From NCBI GenBank assembly GCA_021797495.1, contig JAJZZO010000018.1:1-64000 (forward strand): a DNA stretch of 64,000 nt, written 5' to 3'. Every line of letters starts with the position of its first letter. Positions within the stretch are counted from its first letter, which is position 1. The stretch comes from Microcaldota archaeon. GTDB lineage: Archaea; Micrarchaeota; Micrarchaeia; Micrarchaeales; Micrarchaeaceae. The notes beneath the pieces were generated by a model. That model was not told where the DNA came from and searched no databases. It was given only the letters and a program-made list of their open reading frames with translations. Positions 516 through 7,525 of this stretch are shown here, piece by piece. A program made the position numbers and the translations under genes.

Positions 516-1892
516 TTAATCGCTACCATTTATCCTTTCGTCAAAGAATTTATATATATCAATTAGTGGTTTTATTTTATCCACGGCTAAATCCGCTTGT
601 TCTTCCAAGCTGCCTCTTTCAACTAATATATCTCTGCCTATCACACATCCGACTTTAAATCTCATATATTTACTCTCTGAATCTTCATTATACAGCTTAA
701 TGAACTTTTTGAAAGCTTCTTTCCGATCGTCCCTTACATCCTCATAAAAGTCTTTACTAGTGTTCCTTGGATATTTTAATTTTCCAAATTCATTTAATGA
801 TATTGTAATGCTAGAGATTTCATGTTCATTTTTTGATGCTGATTTTCGCACATGTTCAAATATTATATAATAGTTTGGTATATGCCTATCACCGCTGCTG
901 TCACTCTTGGCGTAGTCTGTGGTGAGCTTTAAGATACATTCTTTCCAGAACGCATCAAATTCACCTTCTTTACTCAGCAAATTAATAATCTTCATAGGTC
1001 TATCTCTCCCTTCTGTGTGGAAGAGTATAGTAAGTCCATCTTGCTCTGGAGAAATAATTGTAAAATGCAACACATTCTTTATATCTTCAACATTACTTTC
1101 TGTTATGCCTACCCACCCATTCCATTTATCTTTCTTCCAAACAGCCATCTTTTTATTAACACTGCTGGATATCTTCTCAGATAGTAATTCTGCAAAATTT
1201 CTAGTTACTTCTTTTACACTCTCATAATCTGCCGCTCCGAAGAAGTGCTCTTTTATAAATCGATCAGTCAATCCCATCATCCTCATGTATCTTAAATATT
1301 GATCTAACAAGAACTTCGTTACTTTAAACTTACTCCCGTGGCTCTCATTATATTCGTTTTCAATTATATTATATATACTTTCCCATGAAATCCACATAAA
1401 CCGCTTTCCCGCAATCCTATATAACTCTTCTAGTTTAAATCCCTTATCCTCTATTGCCCTCTTTTTAGCTATTAAGAGCAATAAGTCATTTTCTTTATCA
1501 TTCAAGTGTCTTTGCAATTGGTTTTCATCTATTTCCATCCTAAATTTTGATTCTACAGCAATTTTGGTTTTTATGTTATTTGCCGTAAGGATCACTGAAG
1601 CATCTGGCCTACTCTCATCCGAACCACTTTGCAGAACAATACTTTCAAGACCTTCTATCTTCAAACCCGAAAAATCTGGATGCTGTTCAATGAAATTATC
1701 AGAAATAGCACCGAATACGTATTTTGGCAATTTGTGTAACCATCCCTCTTTATCGCTCAATTCTAAGACATTGACAAATGCTTTTGTGAGGTTGTTCTCT
1801 AATTGCCTGTACTCTTTTTCTTCATTTTTGCCGTTAGAAGGTCCCCTATAATAATAGAAGATATTATGGTAACTGTTAGTTCTTTCTTCCAT
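516..1892 (-). CDS. PD-(D/E)XK nuclease-like protein
   Basis: A 458-residue soluble protein. The N-terminal 130 residues show the restriction-endonuclease-fold pattern: a helix with E32 in LENNLTKAF, then D97 in RPDAS, then E114-S-K116 in AVESKF, then Q125 in NQLQRH. This matches the E...D...ExK...Q core of PD-(D/E)XK nucleases, so the active site looks intact. The remaining 300 residues are alpha/beta and unrecognised; they may bind DNA or a partner. The ATG at 1892 sits about 29 bases from an AT-rich TATA-like box, suggesting a leaderless transcript. The gene is visibly AT-richer than core genes and lies in the same island as the SPARTA operon, so a defence role is plausible but inferred. 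Nuclease fold is fairly secure; exact family is not. Confidence 0.65.
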   Translation of the reverse strand: MEERTNSYHNIFYYYRGPSNGKNEEKEYRQLENNLTKAFVNVLELSDKEGWLHKLPKYVFGAISDNFIEQHPDFSGLKIEGLESIVLQSGSDESRPDASVILTANNIKTKIAVESKFRMEIDENQLQRHLNDKENDLLLLIAKKRAIEDKGFKLEELYRIAGKRFMWISWESIYNIIENEYNESHGSKFKVTKFLLDQYLRYMRMMGLTDRFIKEHFFGAADYESVKEVTRNFAELLSEKISSSVNKKMAVWKKDKWNGWVGITESNVEDIKNVLHFTIISPEQDGLTILFHTEGRDRPMKIINLLSKEGEFDAFWKECILKLTTDYAKSDSSGDRHIPNYYIIFEHVRKSASKNEHEISSITISLNEFGKLKYPRNTSKDFYEDVRDDRKEAFKKFIKLYNEDSESKYMRFKVGCVIGRDILVERGSLEEQADLAVDKIKPLIDIYKFFDERINGSD

Positions 1893-2046: not shown

Positions 2047-2997
2047 ATGGGAATTGAAGATTACGTTGCCGTTGCAAAAGACATTTCGTTAGAGTTACTA
2101 GATAGAATAGAGAAAAAACACCTTGTGGATTACAGAGATTCATCTCTGCATTCTTCAAAAATAGAAGCAGTCCAAAAAGCTTACGAAAATTGGATGAAAG
2201 CAATAATTTTAAGTGAAATAATACCTTCTTTGTGGAACTTTAACAATCTTGCAGGTAATGCCTCTAAAGCCGTTAGTGTAATCAATGACCCTAACATTCT
2301 TGGTAGTTTGGATGCTGAAACTATAACGATGATAGAGCTAGTTAAACCTCTAGTTGAGTCACAGGGCTTTTTACAACAGTTTCAAACAAGCTTTATGGAT
2401 CCTGCTCTTAACAAGCTGATTGTTAGTGCATCTAGACCAGCCATAAATGATTTCCTTATGCATAAGCTAAACCACGACCTTCATTGGTTTTTTGATTATA
2501 CTTCTAAGATGCAAGGCTTAGAGCAGCTGCTCCCTCCCGTACTAGATAATCAAGGAAATAGGATAGAGAGAGGATCTGCCTATACTGAATTAGTCAAAGA
2601 TGTTGATGCAAACAAACCGTGCTTGATGCGCATACATGAAAATCAGAAGTTCAAACAGGTTTTGTCGCTATTGAAGCAGAAACCCGATGGCCTCGAAGTT
2701 ACACTTCCTTTGCCCTCTGGTCCAGAATTGCAAAAGAAACTTAATTCGATTAATCATCATCTTCTAATATCTATATACGCAAGTTTATATGCAAGTTTGA
2801 TAGTCAAGTGCCTTAAAAAATACCAAAATGAGCCAAGATTTACTGCTAGTGAGGATGCCAATATGGATATCGAGTTAAAATACATACCTCTTGTAGTAGA
2901 GATATTAGAAAACAACTACAAGCAAGACAGACTTTTCATAGACAAGCTCATACCATATTTATCATCTTATCGAGGGCGTAATTTTTCTAGTCCTTAG
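2047..2997 (+). CDS. Hypothetical helical protein, divergent partner of the nuclease-like gene
   Basis: A 316-residue protein starting at an ATG that follows a 154-base divergent spacer. It is predicted by eye to be largely alpha-helical, without signal peptide, clear membrane segment or metal-binding cysteine pairs. A WFFDY stretch near residue 147 and a leucine/tyrosine-rich helix around residues 240-260 are the most distinctive parts. I recognise no family. It shares AT-rich composition with the neighbouring nuclease-like and SPARTA genes and lies inside the tRNA-linked island, so an accessory or defence-related role is possible. The C-terminus runs into a hairpin-rich non-coding stretch. 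Confidence 0.6.
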   Translation: MGIEDYVAVAKDISLELLDRIEKKHLVDYRDSSLHSSKIEAVQKAYENWMKAIILSEIIPSLWNFNNLAGNASKAVSVINDPNILGSLDAETITMIELVKPLVESQGFLQQFQTSFMDPALNKLIVSASRPAINDFLMHKLNHDLHWFFDYTSKMQGLEQLLPPVLDNQGNRIERGSAYTELVKDVDANKPCLMRIHENQKFKQVLSLLKQKPDGLEVTLPLPSGPELQKKLNSINHHLLISIYASLYASLIVKCLKKYQNEPRFTASEDANMDIELKYIPLVVEILENNYKQDRLFIDKLIPYLSSYRGRNFSSP

Positions 2998-3591: not shown

Positions 3592-5082
3592 TTATATGTA
3601 AAATTTGAAACTGGGGTTGTTATCTTTAACTGTAGGGTTAGAAACAAGTATTTCACCTACTGAATCAGAGAAGCCTATAGTGACTGGTTGCGAGTCTGCA
3701 AACCTGCATGCGTTATAATTCAGTTTGGTTAAACTTAATATGTCTTTTGATACTTGTTCGATTGAAGCTTCACCATATTGGATATCAATTTTTAAAGGAA
3801 CTGGGACTTCCCATCCGTCATAAGTTTGTAATCGTGGCTTAAAGCCAGTTGCCCACAAATATGCACTTTTTTCATTAATTTCTAGGTATGTACCTCTTAT
3901 AACAGGGTATTCACCTTTTCGAAATAATTTTGTTATGCTATTTAAGCGCACTCTGACACCTACTAATTTAACTCCGTTGGGACATGCTTCGAGGTAGCCC
4001 TCAAATTGATCCTGGTTAATATAGGATCTAGAATGGATAAATATCTCGGTTAATTTTTTACCTTCTAACTCGTTATACGTTTTTAGTATTCCTTTGAGTA
4101 ATCTAGAGGCTGCGTCTTTACTTAACTGAAATTCTTTTTTATCTTCAGAATACCATGGGCCTTCATCACCGAGGAATACAACGCCTTCCCCGGTATTTAA
4201 AAACATTTGAGCGGCGCAACATGCAGTTGTACTGCCTTTTTTGATATCTGTGCGTTTAAAAGATATTCCAATATAACAGACTCCTTCACGGGCAGTCGCA
4301 AGTTTCCAAGGTTTTCCGCCTGCTTTGTAATATAAAGTTGTAGAAAGATTCCACGCTCTATCAGATAGAGGTGTCTTTCCTGTTTTTCCGCGTTCCAAAG
4401 GTAGGTTGGGATTAATAGTAGATTCCCGTATAATTTGGATTGGAATTCCGTATTCCATGGAGCGGGCTTTAATTTGACGACGAAAATCTACTGAAAATCT
4501 ATATTGGTCGATAGACCATTGATTAAATAAACTTGTTTGGTTCATTCTTATTTTACGCGTTCTGCTAGATATGTGTTCGCCCCATGAGTCAGAAACTGGG
4601 GATTTTGGTCTACAATTTTTCCATACTTCATCGGGAACTATACAAATAATAACGTGGAATGTTTCATCGCGCTTCTTGGTTAGGGCGATGCCATTTAGGT
4701 ATTCTTCTACTATTGTAGAGGTTCTTTTGTTAGGATCGGCGTTCCTTGATGCATAAAGAATTTTATCCCTGTCAATTTCGTGAATTAATGTTGGCTTTTC
4801 AGGCCAGTCCGAATCAAAAACTGTTTTAAATCCAGGAAACATTGGCCAAAGCAAAGGATTTTCGATGTCAGAATAGATAGGCTTATTTATAGCCTTAGAC
4901 CACTCTTCAAATGAGGCTATTCCATCTTTCGTTCCAACTACTCCATATATAATATTTTTTGGATGGTATGGCATGTCTGCGCTGTATGGACCGAATAAAA
5001 CTAGCCCATCGTGTGGATCATACAATTTTTGTCCGTACCTAAATTCTAATAATGGCTCATCAAATATTTTAAGATCAGACAT
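3592..5082 (-). CDS. Short prokaryotic Argonaute (MID-PIWI, catalytically inactive), SPARTA subunit
   Basis: A 496-residue protein with the length and layout of short pAgos: no N or PAZ domain, a MID domain (about 100-260) and a PIWI domain (about 260-496). The PIWI core strand reads CYIGIS at 269-274, where catalytic Argonautes have Asp at the last position; the later strand has IHSRS (349-353) instead of an HRDG-type site. The DEDX tetrad is therefore missing, as known for short pAgos, which use a guide to bind DNA targets without cutting. The basic stretch RRQIKARSMEYGIPIQ (201-216) is a likely 5'-guide pocket. Its ATG overlaps the stop of the TIR-APAZ gene (TAATG), so the two are translationally coupled. 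Known SPARTA: the pAgo/TIR-APAZ pair senses invader DNA via RNA guides and triggers NAD(P)+ depletion. Confidence 0.9.
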   Translation of the reverse strand: MSDLKIFDEPLLEFRYGQKLYDPHDGLVLFGPYSADMPYHPKNIIYGVVGTKDGIASFEEWSKAINKPIYSDIENPLLWPMFPGFKTVFDSDWPEKPTLIHEIDRDKILYASRNADPNKRTSTIVEEYLNGIALTKKRDETFHVIICIVPDEVWKNCRPKSPVSDSWGEHISSRTRKIRMNQTSLFNQWSIDQYRFSVDFRRQIKARSMEYGIPIQIIRESTINPNLPLERGKTGKTPLSDRAWNLSTTLYYKAGGKPWKLATAREGVCYIGISFKRTDIKKGSTTACCAAQMFLNTGEGVVFLGDEGPWYSEDKKEFQLSKDAASRLLKGILKTYNELEGKKLTEIFIHSRSYINQDQFEGYLEACPNGVKLVGVRVRLNSITKLFRKGEYPVIRGTYLEINEKSAYLWATGFKPRLQTYDGWEVPVPLKIDIQYGEASIEQVSKDILSLTKLNYNACRFADSQPVTIGFSDSVGEILVSNPTVKDNNPSFKFYI

Positions 5083-6386
5083 TAATCTACACCATGCTTT
5101 TTATTGTCTAGTTTATTTTCATCAATTCCGTATGGGGCTATTTTTTCAATAAATTTTGTTGATAATATTACTTGCGAATCAGGAAAGTCGCCTATAACTA
5201 TATTTTCTGCACCTTGCGACAAAAAGCTTAGGACGGCCAAATGACGATTTAACCAATGGTAATTCCACCAATTTTTACAGATGTTCTTTCTTCTTGCATT
5301 TGATTGTTTTGGGGTTAACGGTAAATCATTCAAATCGGTAATGTGGAGACCCACTCTAAGGCTAGCGTAATAGCCGCCATCTGATTCCTTATATATCTTG
5401 AATTTAGGAGAAAGATAGAAACGGTACTTTGTTAGTTCGCCATTAACGCGGCGAGACCTTTCACCGTAGATATTCACTCTGGATGTTTTGCCATCATATG
5501 TAATAAATTTTATTTTATCTCCGAGAATGATACCTTTAGAAAAATAGATTATTGTACGATCGTTTATGATAATGTCTTTTAGTCCAGAATTATAACATGC
5601 TAGTTGAATGGATTTTAAGAGTAAATTTGAAATTATATTTTTTGTTGGTATGCCATAAATATATTCAGATTCAAGGTTTTCATCTTTTACGAAATGTATA
5701 TAATAATCTCTACTTAATTTATCTGACGGAGAGGTAAAAGAAAGGACAAGCTTTTCTTTATTTCGTGACGTTTTATAGAAAGCCCAGTGGGTTTCTTCTT
5801 CTTTGTCGATGGATATTTCAGTTTTGAATACTTTTAAAGCTTGGGGGATTTTAATGAACGGTATAGAATTGATATATACATTTTCTGGGGTGGAGGTCAG
5901 GAAGTCAGTGTTAAGGTATCCTTTGGCAATTATCTCCTTTCCTCCTGAAATAGGTCTTGGTGCATTAATCGAATTAAGTTTTTTTAATAGTTGACTTAAT
6001 CCTAAAGCCCAACTTTTATAGAATGAGATAAAATTTATGTCGCTTACCATCCAATTTATTTCTGATGGGCTAATACCATCTATATTTAAAGGAATTACAA
6101 AATCATCTTCGTTTCTGGATCTCGCAAGTGTAATGGCGAGAGTGCGCTCCTTCGTTGGATTTTGTTTTGCGTTGGACGTTCGAGACATTACGGCTAAGAA
6201 CCTAAATGTTTTGGATCTTATAGCTTGATCTATATCTTTGGGATAAGATTCACCTCCCAGTTCCTTAAATTTATCACACCAAACCGCGTATCCTTCACAA
6301 GTAAGTTTTTGTGTAAGCCAGATTGCGAATTCTGAATCTTCACTCGCATAACTTATGAAAATATGGTCTCTGACCTCAGCTAACAT
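5082..6386 (-). CDS. TIR-APAZ protein, NADase effector of a SPARTA system
   Basis: A 434-residue protein. Residues 7-145 form a TIR domain: HIFISYASED opens the first strand, WCD follows at 36-38, and E80 in NPTKERTLA is the likely catalytic glutamate of the NAD(P)ase site. Residues about 150-434 match the APAZ region that replaces the Argonaute N domain, with the YYASLRVGLHITDL strand and the NWWNYHWLNRHLAVL helix near the C-terminus. TIR-APAZ proteins pair with short pAgos; on target recognition the complex oligomerises and hydrolyses NAD(P)+, killing or stalling the infected cell. The gene is first in the pair and its stop shares one base with the pAgo start. It is AT-richer than core genes. 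Family call is strong; NADase activity and the catalytic residue are inferred. Confidence 0.88.
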   Translation of the reverse strand: MLAEVRDHIFISYASEDSEFAIWLTQKLTCEGYAVWCDKFKELGGESYPKDIDQAIRSKTFRFLAVMSRTSNAKQNPTKERTLAITLARSRNEDDFVIPLNIDGISPSEINWMVSDINFISFYKSWALGLSQLLKKLNSINAPRPISGGKEIIAKGYLNTDFLTSTPENVYINSIPFIKIPQALKVFKTEISIDKEEETHWAFYKTSRNKEKLVLSFTSPSDKLSRDYYIHFVKDENLESEYIYGIPTKNIISNLLLKSIQLACYNSGLKDIIINDRTIIYFSKGIILGDKIKFITYDGKTSRVNIYGERSRRVNGELTKYRFYLSPKFKIYKESDGGYYASLRVGLHITDLNDLPLTPKQSNARRKNICKNWWNYHWLNRHLAVLSFLSQGAENIVIGDFPDSQVILSTKFIEKIAPYGIDENKLDNKKHGVD

Positions 6387-6394
6387 TGCGTCAC

Positions 6395-6415
6395 GTTTAT
6401 ATATTATTTTACTAT
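6395..6415 (-). promoter_or_regulatory. AT-rich putative promoter of the SPARTA operon
   Basis: Just upstream of the TIR-APAZ ATG (6386) the minus strand carries overlapping TATA-like elements (TATATAAAC and TAAAATAATA). No GGTG Shine-Dalgarno core lies near the start. A leaderless transcript beginning close to 6386 is the simplest reading. The 135-base gap to the upstream recombinase gene argues for independent transcription of the operon. Confidence 0.4.
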
Positions 6416-6521
6416 CTAGGTATTTAATCTTAGCTGCTTAAAGGCAGTTTTACCGTTTATATAACATAAATCTGACTTTCATGCTCAAAGCTGTTCTGCT
6501 TCTCAGTTGTTGGCTTCTCAA

Positions 6522-7286
6522 TTAGGTTCTGGAAAGCTTGGCTTTCAGGGCCGCTGCTTGGCTGACGCCAAACGCTCCGTCTATGCCGTCATACAACTGC
6601 TTCTTGTTCGTGTTTATGTATGTCATAGTCATGGCAGGCTGCCTGTGGCGCGCAAACTTGCTAGTCAGGAAAACGTTGCCGTTGTTCTGCTCTGCGAAGT
6701 GCGTTATGGCATAGTGCCTCAGGCTATGCGTGGTCAACCTGTGCAACTTTCTTGAACCCTTGGTTGGTATTGATTCGTCGCTCATGTCATACACCTCATC
6801 TAAGCCTGCCTTGTTTATGAAATCGGTGAACTGATTACGCACGTAACCCTCATCCAAGTAAGGCTCTAAAGTGCGACCTTTGCCCTGTTCCTTGAAGAAC
6901 AGGTATCCAGCCGCGTTCTCTATCGCCTTTGTATTCGCTTTAATGTAATCTAGCGTCTCTTTGAAGAGCGGGGCAGGAATTAGCAGCGTATCCAGAGTCA
7001 TAGCTTTCTCTGTCTTGACGACTAATTCCCTGCTCTCGAACTTTATGTCTTTGATGTTTACCTTTCTAGCTTCGCCCAGGCGCAGGCCAAGCTGCGCCTG
7101 ATACGAGAAAAGAAGGTGGAACTTCGGATTCTTTACGACTCTGAAGAAGGCGCTGATCTCTTGTTCGTCGAAACCCTTGTTTAGAGAGCCGTACTTCGGT
7201 ACACGGCTTCTCTGGAAGCGTTTCTTGAACTGCGCGATTATTATCTTTCGAATTTCTACCAAATCGTGTTTTGGAAGGTAAGGCAA
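6522..7286 (-). CDS. Tyrosine recombinase (phage-type integrase), short N-terminus
   Basis: A 254-residue tyrosine recombinase. The catalytic residues are visible: R69 in LGLRLGEA, K92 or K94, H187-x-x-R190 in THSLRHY, H214 in FARHR and Y223 in MTYINT. Only about 40 residues precede the catalytic domain, so most of the usual core-binding domain is missing. The reading frame opens with TTG at 7286 and a stop lies a few codons upstream, so no longer product is possible without a frameshift. It sits 168 bases from the 3' end of tRNA-Ala, pointing towards it, the classic arrangement for an element integrated at a tRNA 3' end. It probably mobilised, or once mobilised, the island carrying SPARTA. 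Confidence 0.85.
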   Translation of the reverse strand: MPYLPKHDLVEIRKIIIAQFKKRFQRSRVPKYGSLNKGFDEQEISAFFRVVKNPKFHLLFSYQAQLGLRLGEARKVNIKDIKFESRELVVKTEKAMTLDTLLIPAPLFKETLDYIKANTKAIENAAGYLFFKEQGKGRTLEPYLDEGYVRNQFTDFINKAGLDEVYDMSDESIPTKGSRKLHRLTTHSLRHYAITHFAEQNNGNVFLTSKFARHRQPAMTMTYINTNKKQLYDGIDGAFGVSQAAALKAKLSRT

Positions 7287-7385: not shown

Positions 7386-7429
7386 CCCGCTTACTGGTTT
7401 ACAGCCAAAGCTTGCGTCGGGTTCTTGAT

Positions 7430-7452
7430 AAAACTTCTTTCCAAGAAGTTTT
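7430..7452. repeat. Perfect 10-bp hairpin abutting the tRNA-Ala 3' end
   Basis: AAAACTTCTT (7430-7439) pairs with AAGAAGTTTT (7443-7452) across a three-base loop. It ends one base before the tRNA 3' end (7454), so on the minus strand it would fold immediately after the tRNA and may end its transcript. It resembles the 3213-3235 hairpin, including the preceding TGAT, with paired changes in both arms. Confidence 0.6.
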
Positions 7453-7453
7453 G

Positions 7454-7525
7454 TGGACTCTGCGGGATTCGCACCCGCGACCCCCCGCTTGCAAAGCGGG
7501 TGCTCTACTACTGAGCCAAGAGCCC
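7454..7525 (-). tRNA. tRNA-Ala(TGC)
   Basis: The minus strand folds into a 72-base cloverleaf: acceptor GGGCTCT/AGAGTCC, D-arm GCTC/GAGC, anticodon stem CCCGC/GCGGG around TTTGCAA, T-arm GCGGG/CCCGC. The anticodon is TGC, reading GCA. The acceptor carries the G3-U70 wobble pair, the alanine identity element, and A73. No intron and no encoded CCA. An integrase gene lies just beyond its 3' end, marking it as the probable integration target of the SPARTA island. Confidence 0.97.

Follow-up and report, generated by a model that had tools for sequence, protein, structure and literature searches.

SPARTA has been described as a bacterial system (PMC11156904); CrtSPARTA of Crenotalea (Thermoflavifilum) thermophilum and MapSPARTA of Maribacter polysiphoniae each combine a clade S2A short prokaryotic Argonaute (pAgo) with a TIR-APAZ protein. 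All three clades of pAgo have been reported in both prokaryotic domains, TIR-APAZ constituting APAZ group IIa (PMC6299218), and a study covering 7,747 archaeal genomes handles argonautes as a class, SPARTA being absent from its text (PMC12988326). In the literature searched, no paper was found that joins "DPANN" with "TIR-APAZ" (an absence there is not proof), and "Micrarchaeota" and "Argonaute" were found together only in a CRISPR review. The operon considered here lies in a Micrarchaeota MAG of 959,486 bases (0.96 Mb; 89% complete), within the first 64 kb of its contig C19; "the window" designates that entire analyzed stretch. The operon is a real and intact SPARTA system, of the ordinary kind, in an unusual host.

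Table 1. Features of the operon and its surroundings in the window.
Feature	Position	Strand	Remarks
458-aa protein, island passenger	516..1892	(-)	ORF; GC 34%
316-aa protein, island passenger	2047..2997	(+)	ORF; GC 37%
Short prokaryotic Argonaute (MID-PIWI), 496 aa	3592..5082	(-)	PIWI catalytically inactive by sequence
TAATG stop/start overlap linking TIR-APAZ and short Argonaute genes	5080..5084	(-)	Sequence
TIR-APAZ effector subunit, 434 aa	5082..6386	(-)	TIR ~6-139, APAZ ~150-424
Candidate catalytic E80 codon of TIR-APAZ	6147-6149	(-)	
Tyrosine recombinase/integrase, 254 aa from TTG start	6522..7286	(-)	GC 48%, host-like
tRNA-Ala(TGC), presumed integration target	7453..7525	(-)	ARAGORN and Rfam

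The initial annotation had read the two genes as a complete SPARTA operon, and that reading is borne out: both open reading frames have the lengths and the TAATG coupling ascribed to them (the junction reads ...GATTAATGTCTG...), and searches by profile, by sequence and by structure each return SPARTA chains as top matches. Pfam TIR_2 covers residues 9-134 of the TIR-APAZ protein (E=1.1e-19), and PADLOC Aga_TIR-PNTD1-PNTD2 covers residues 5-424 (E=1.9e-67); the APAZ portion, which had been placed at residues 150-434, has its profile match at ~160-424 and by itself still finds the same PADLOC models (E=3.2e-22). The short Argonaute matches PADLOC pAgo_I over residues 3-496 (E=5.6e-179) and is made of MID and PIWI only, N and PAZ being absent. 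When the two proteins are compared with all PDB sequences, SPARTA complexes come out on top for each (for the Argonaute, SPARTA chains with E near 1e-112), with SPARDA and SPARSA chains scoring far below. AlphaFold2 models, built as single chains from 28-row alignments, lead to the same complexes. That of the Argonaute (mean pLDDT 85; top Foldseek matches SPARTA subunits, E=2e-52) matches 8isy_A of Crt-SPARTA over the full length at TM 0.89, so that the PIWI fold required of this protein is present in a SPARTA-type MID-PIWI arrangement. The TIR-APAZ model (mean pLDDT 89, with low confidence at residues 42-48 in the BB-loop region) finds SPARTA TIR-APAZ in all its top PDB matches (E=3e-27), and SPARTA APAZ and AfAgo-N chains besides; its whole-chain TM of about 0.45 (rmsd 17) probably reflects the uncertain arrangement of TIR and APAZ in an isolated model chain, and against the shorter target 8jr8_B (252 residues) TM by target length is 0.73 (rmsd 4.2). 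These E-values, and the recurrence of the pair in another Micrarchaeota genome, exclude a chance origin.

How would such a system work in this host? It is very probably a device of suicide immunity, RNA-guided and triggered by single-stranded DNA, that depletes NAD(P) and reached this genome aboard a mobile, AT-rich island. The TIR-APAZ/Argonaute heterodimer would load a small 5'-phosphorylated guide RNA; pairing of that guide with the single-stranded DNA of an invading plasmid or virus would be the trigger for assembly of heterodimers into a higher-order complex, in which TIR domains would pair to form a composite active site; E80-dependent hydrolysis of NAD(P)+ would then kill or arrest the cell before the invader could spread. 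Complex formation, RNA guides, DNA targets, NAD(P)ase activity and an abortive outcome are here attributed to the window system by analogy with characterized SPARTA. The gene pair itself would have come with the island, inserted next to tRNA-Ala.

The residues that bind the guide 5'-phosphate and Mg2+ in CrtSPARTA, K211, N468 and the C-terminal I507 (PMC11156904), are kept in the window's Argonaute as K205, N457 and I496; Crt H207 corresponds to R201, and Arg is found there in 20 of 20 members of the window's branch. As for the PIWI catalytic tetrad, Crt V284/Y328/R362/N484 align with S274/F318/R352/D473. The claim that the DEDX residues had been lost, with IGIS at 271-274, thus holds for its motif, S274 being the first tetrad position, and overreaches in its extent: D473 is retained and only three of the four are gone. 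S274, F318 and R352 nevertheless make the PIWI domain inactive by sequence.

How widely is this operon distributed? PADLOC pAgo_I matches occur in 3 of 301 Micrarchaeota genomes (the window's, G128 and G010), and SPARTA in 2 of the 301: G128 has a complete system (64% identity to the window in the Argonaute, 47-48% in TIR-APAZ), while the G010 Argonaute is partnered by AlbA_2/Schlafen-APAZ, with TIR absent. The initial annotation was right about the archaeal location (gene content, and synteny with genomes of the same genus, mark the contig as archaeal) but overstated the novelty of an archaeal copy. A pattern-based scan of GTDB genomes (the 80 best loci, not an exhaustive set) yields at least nine further archaeal SPARTA loci, in the second micrarchaeon and in six other archaeal groups: Thermoplasmatales, Archaeoglobales, Methanomassiliicoccales (three), ANME-1, Pacearchaeota and Bathyarchaeota (all of them MAGs, with binning taken as given). 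The archaeal loci, like most bacterial ones, preserve the tight TIR-APAZ/Argonaute operon; this, and the 64% and 48% identities in the other micrarchaeon, imply that both subunits are under selection. Related Argonautes are found on 101 plasmid records. A viral relative does not emerge with TIR-APAZ as query, and a single one (L107) emerges by Argonaute alignment: contig IMGVR_UViG_3300038975_000236 carries a complete SPARTA operon (3694-6485) between DNA methylases and terminase/head-like genes, and is apparently a case of virus- or provirus-borne SPARTA. (A side observation: the bacterial loci L025 4174-5973, L027 4209-5993 and L033 387-2192, on the same Argonaute branch as the window, encode APAZ-type partners of 595-602 aa with an extra N-terminal domain; the PADLOC REase-TIR-APAZ model is similar in size.)

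The Argonaute phylogeny that had been suggested as a check puts the window protein with SPARTA. In the large tree it lies inside a 60-row clade that also holds Map and Crt (support 100/100), apart from the pAgos of AlbA_2-APAZ systems. The Argonautes fall into two parts: the side of Map and Crt, whose members in this sample are bacterial, and a mixed archaeal and bacterial branch that includes the window (100/99 in the large and 100/100 in the smaller tree). On the mixed branch G128 is the sister of the window (100/94 and 99/97, respectively), and the archaeal SPARTA Argonautes, Bathyarchaeota excepted, group together with moderate support (85/78 and 92/85). The TIR-APAZ tree has the same sister pair (97/97) and a seven-row archaeal group (86/89) that leaves two Methanomassiliicoccales outside; the AU test does not reject one clade of all the archaea (p=0.35). 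Both genes have archaeal nearest relatives, and the trees therefore favor exchange between archaea over an isolated gift from a bacterium; with moderate branch support they stop short of proof, and a single recent bacterial transfer is the less likely course.

The island starts just 3' of tRNA-Ala(TGC). Its integrase matches Pfam Phage_integrase (E=1.7e-10) and the PHROG integrase (E=5.5e-20), with NCBIfam XerA_Arch (E=6.5e-12) below cut-off, and its cargo has a GC content of 34-37%, as against 46% for the rest. The 316-aa passenger has no family match above cut-off in Pfam, PADLOC, NCBIfam or PHROG and no homologue in the fetched loci; the 458-aa passenger matches no family in the same four profile sets, and a PD...ESK motif, read by eye, suggests that it might be a PD-(D/E)XK nuclease. 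Gene order through tRNA-Ala is conserved in three same-genus genomes, in which other genes lie beyond the tRNA and the island is absent at that site. An orthologue of one of these other genes is found on contig C16 of the window's genome, and C16 ends beside it, which makes it probable that the island spans the gap from C16 to C19. Because the contig ends, neither a distal boundary nor a duplicated att could be located: within the 64 kb the 3' end of tRNA-Ala is present once, and its only other copy in the genome is the 3' end of a second tRNA gene, tRNA-Ala(CGC), so that no distal att emerged. A 34-nt direct repeat (3203-3236/7420-7453, 79% identity) looks like two similar hairpins and was not counted as att. 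(The copy at 7420-7453 abuts the tRNA-Ala 3' end; the two could be a terminator pair or a decayed att remnant.) G004, of the same genus, has a small two-gene toxin-antitoxin-like cassette just after tRNA-Ala (L099 3110-3880); behind the cassette, at about 3857-3878, part of the tRNA 3' end is repeated (CGAATCCCGCAGAGTCCAT), which suggests that elements integrate at this tRNA time and again, as at a "hotspot".

Whom, then, does the operon serve, the cell or the island? SPARTA might chiefly be a device of competition between elements, cargo that excludes plasmids and viruses for the benefit of its carrier. An adjoining integrase at tRNA-Ala, AT-rich cargo, the absence of the operon from this site in same-genus genomes, the related operon beside terminase-like genes in L107 and the plasmid-borne relatives all speak for this notion, which is quite possible if somewhat short of probable; there is, on the other hand, no sign that the island is still mobile, and the notion is compatible with defense of the cell rather than a true alternative to it.

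Suicide immunity through NAD(P)+ hydrolysis, the reading that we prefer, depends on the TIR active site. The candidate catalytic residue put forward in the initial annotation, E80, aligns with the catalytic E77 of CrtSPARTA and is invariant in 28 of 28 aligned TIR-APAZ proteins. (The roles of CrtSPARTA residues are taken from PMC11156904 and PMC10474274.) Its surroundings are less familiar. In CrtSPARTA, NADase activity is largely lost in the W46A and Y105A mutants and R114E is inactive (PMC11156904, PMC10474274); in the window W46 is replaced by P49, Y105 by P107, R114 by D116 and R72 by W79, and the Argonaute dimer-interface pair Q35/Y37 by H40/K42. Crt F45 remains aromatic, as Y48, and W112 lies near the position of the lost Y105; these stacking residues form no formal part of the family definition. 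These traits belong to the branch: its 20 aligned members all have Glu80, Pro49 and Y, W or F at 48, 18 have Trp112 (Phe in the other two), and the Tyr105 aromatic is lost throughout; on the Map/Crt side W46 prevails, as does Y or F at 105. We infer that the residues stacking on nicotinamide and adenine have been rearranged, Y48-P49 and W112 standing in for F45-W46 and Y105. We found no solved structure for this branch of SPARTA. With W46, Y105, R114 and Q35/Y37 replaced, the branch might use another substrate or another mode of assembly, or be only weakly active. A larger proposal, tentative and rather doubtful, is that the window belongs to an archaeal-circulating SPARTA lineage within this branch, and that the rebuilt TIR site (Y/W48-P49 and W112 for F45-W46 and Y105) makes substrate choice, product or TIR assembly differ from those of the Map/Crt systems.

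A narrower alternative keeps recognition and assembly SPARTA-like and has the TIR domain act on some other nucleotide or release some other product, such as an isomer of cyclic ADP-ribose that would serve as second messenger. It arises because the substrate-stacking residues differ throughout the branch, and it draws on the universal P49 and the missing aromatic at 105, for which the aromatic at 48 and W112 possibly compensate, and on AbTir, whose Trp equivalent to Crt W46 steers cyclization (PMC11156904). It is nevertheless unlikely: the catalytic Glu is kept, no messenger-reading partner gene was identified within the island with Pfam, PADLOC and NCBIfam profiles, and Y48 and W112 could simply fill the same roles. 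That a bacterial operon was misjoined to an archaeal contig in assembly or binning is scarcely credible: the genome is a MAG, the GC of the island is unlike that of the chromosome and the contig ends 3.6 kb from the operon, but the contig continues unbroken to tRNA-Ala and to genes that are in synteny with those of three same-genus genomes, the phylogenetic neighbors are archaeal rather than bacterial, and the closest relative of both genes is in an independent Micrarchaeota MAG from another study, so that synteny and this relative rule out contamination and misassembly.

The SPARTA systems described and tested come from bacteria; here a complete copy resides in a DPANN archaeon of about 1 Mb. 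With relatives in six other archaeal groups, the genes of RNA-guided, NAD(P)-depleting immunity are common to both prokaryotic domains and present even in very small genomes, and the branch-specific TIR site provides natural variants for asking which residues SPARTA needs for recognizing NAD(P)+. The surprise, a moderate one, lies in the archaeal spread and in the branch-wide alteration of that site.

Among known systems, CrtSPARTA and MapSPARTA share with the window the order of the genes (TIR-APAZ, then short pAgo) and their overlap, domain order, folds, the catalytic TIR Glu, an inactive PIWI and the pocket residues for the guide 5'-phosphate; the alignments are near full-length, at 41% identity in pAgo and 22-23% in TIR-APAZ. 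The window differs from both in its separate branch (100/100) and archaeal host, and from CrtSPARTA in having P49, P107 (with W112 nearby), D116, W79, R201 and H40/K42. The system of Micrarchaeota archaeon Modern_marine.mb.254 (L006/L008; different family, same class), sister in both trees, has overlapping genes and the same residue signature, at 64% (pAgo) and 48% (TIR-APAZ) identity; in place of the integrase/tRNA context, a metallo-beta-lactamase-fold gene overlaps its TIR-APAZ start. (That gene, L006 4360-5727, 455 aa, possibly belongs to the operon; it has no PADLOC match.) The window's operon and TIR signature recur, at 54-61% pAgo identity, in L009 (Thermoplasmatales), L010 (Archaeoglobales), L011, L013 and L014 (Methanomassiliicoccales), L012 (ANME-1), L019 (Pacearchaeota) and L023 (Bathyarchaeota). 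The AlbA_2(Schlafen)-APAZ systems with short pAgo (Micrarchaeota L073/L007, Methanoperedens L067) are likewise archaeal and have an APAZ partner, but differ in their distinct pAgo clade and their effector: an N-terminal SLFN_AlbA_2 domain (E 1e-6 to 1e-11), possibly an RNase-type effector, replaces the TIR, SIR2 or nuclease domain. That clade (L067, L069, L070, L072, L073, which is L007 8040-9479, L075, L077, L079, L080 and L083) is nearly all archaeal (Methanoperedens, Micrarchaeota, Woesearchaeota, Nanoarchaeota, Bathyarchaeota and others), with L076 as a bacterial member.
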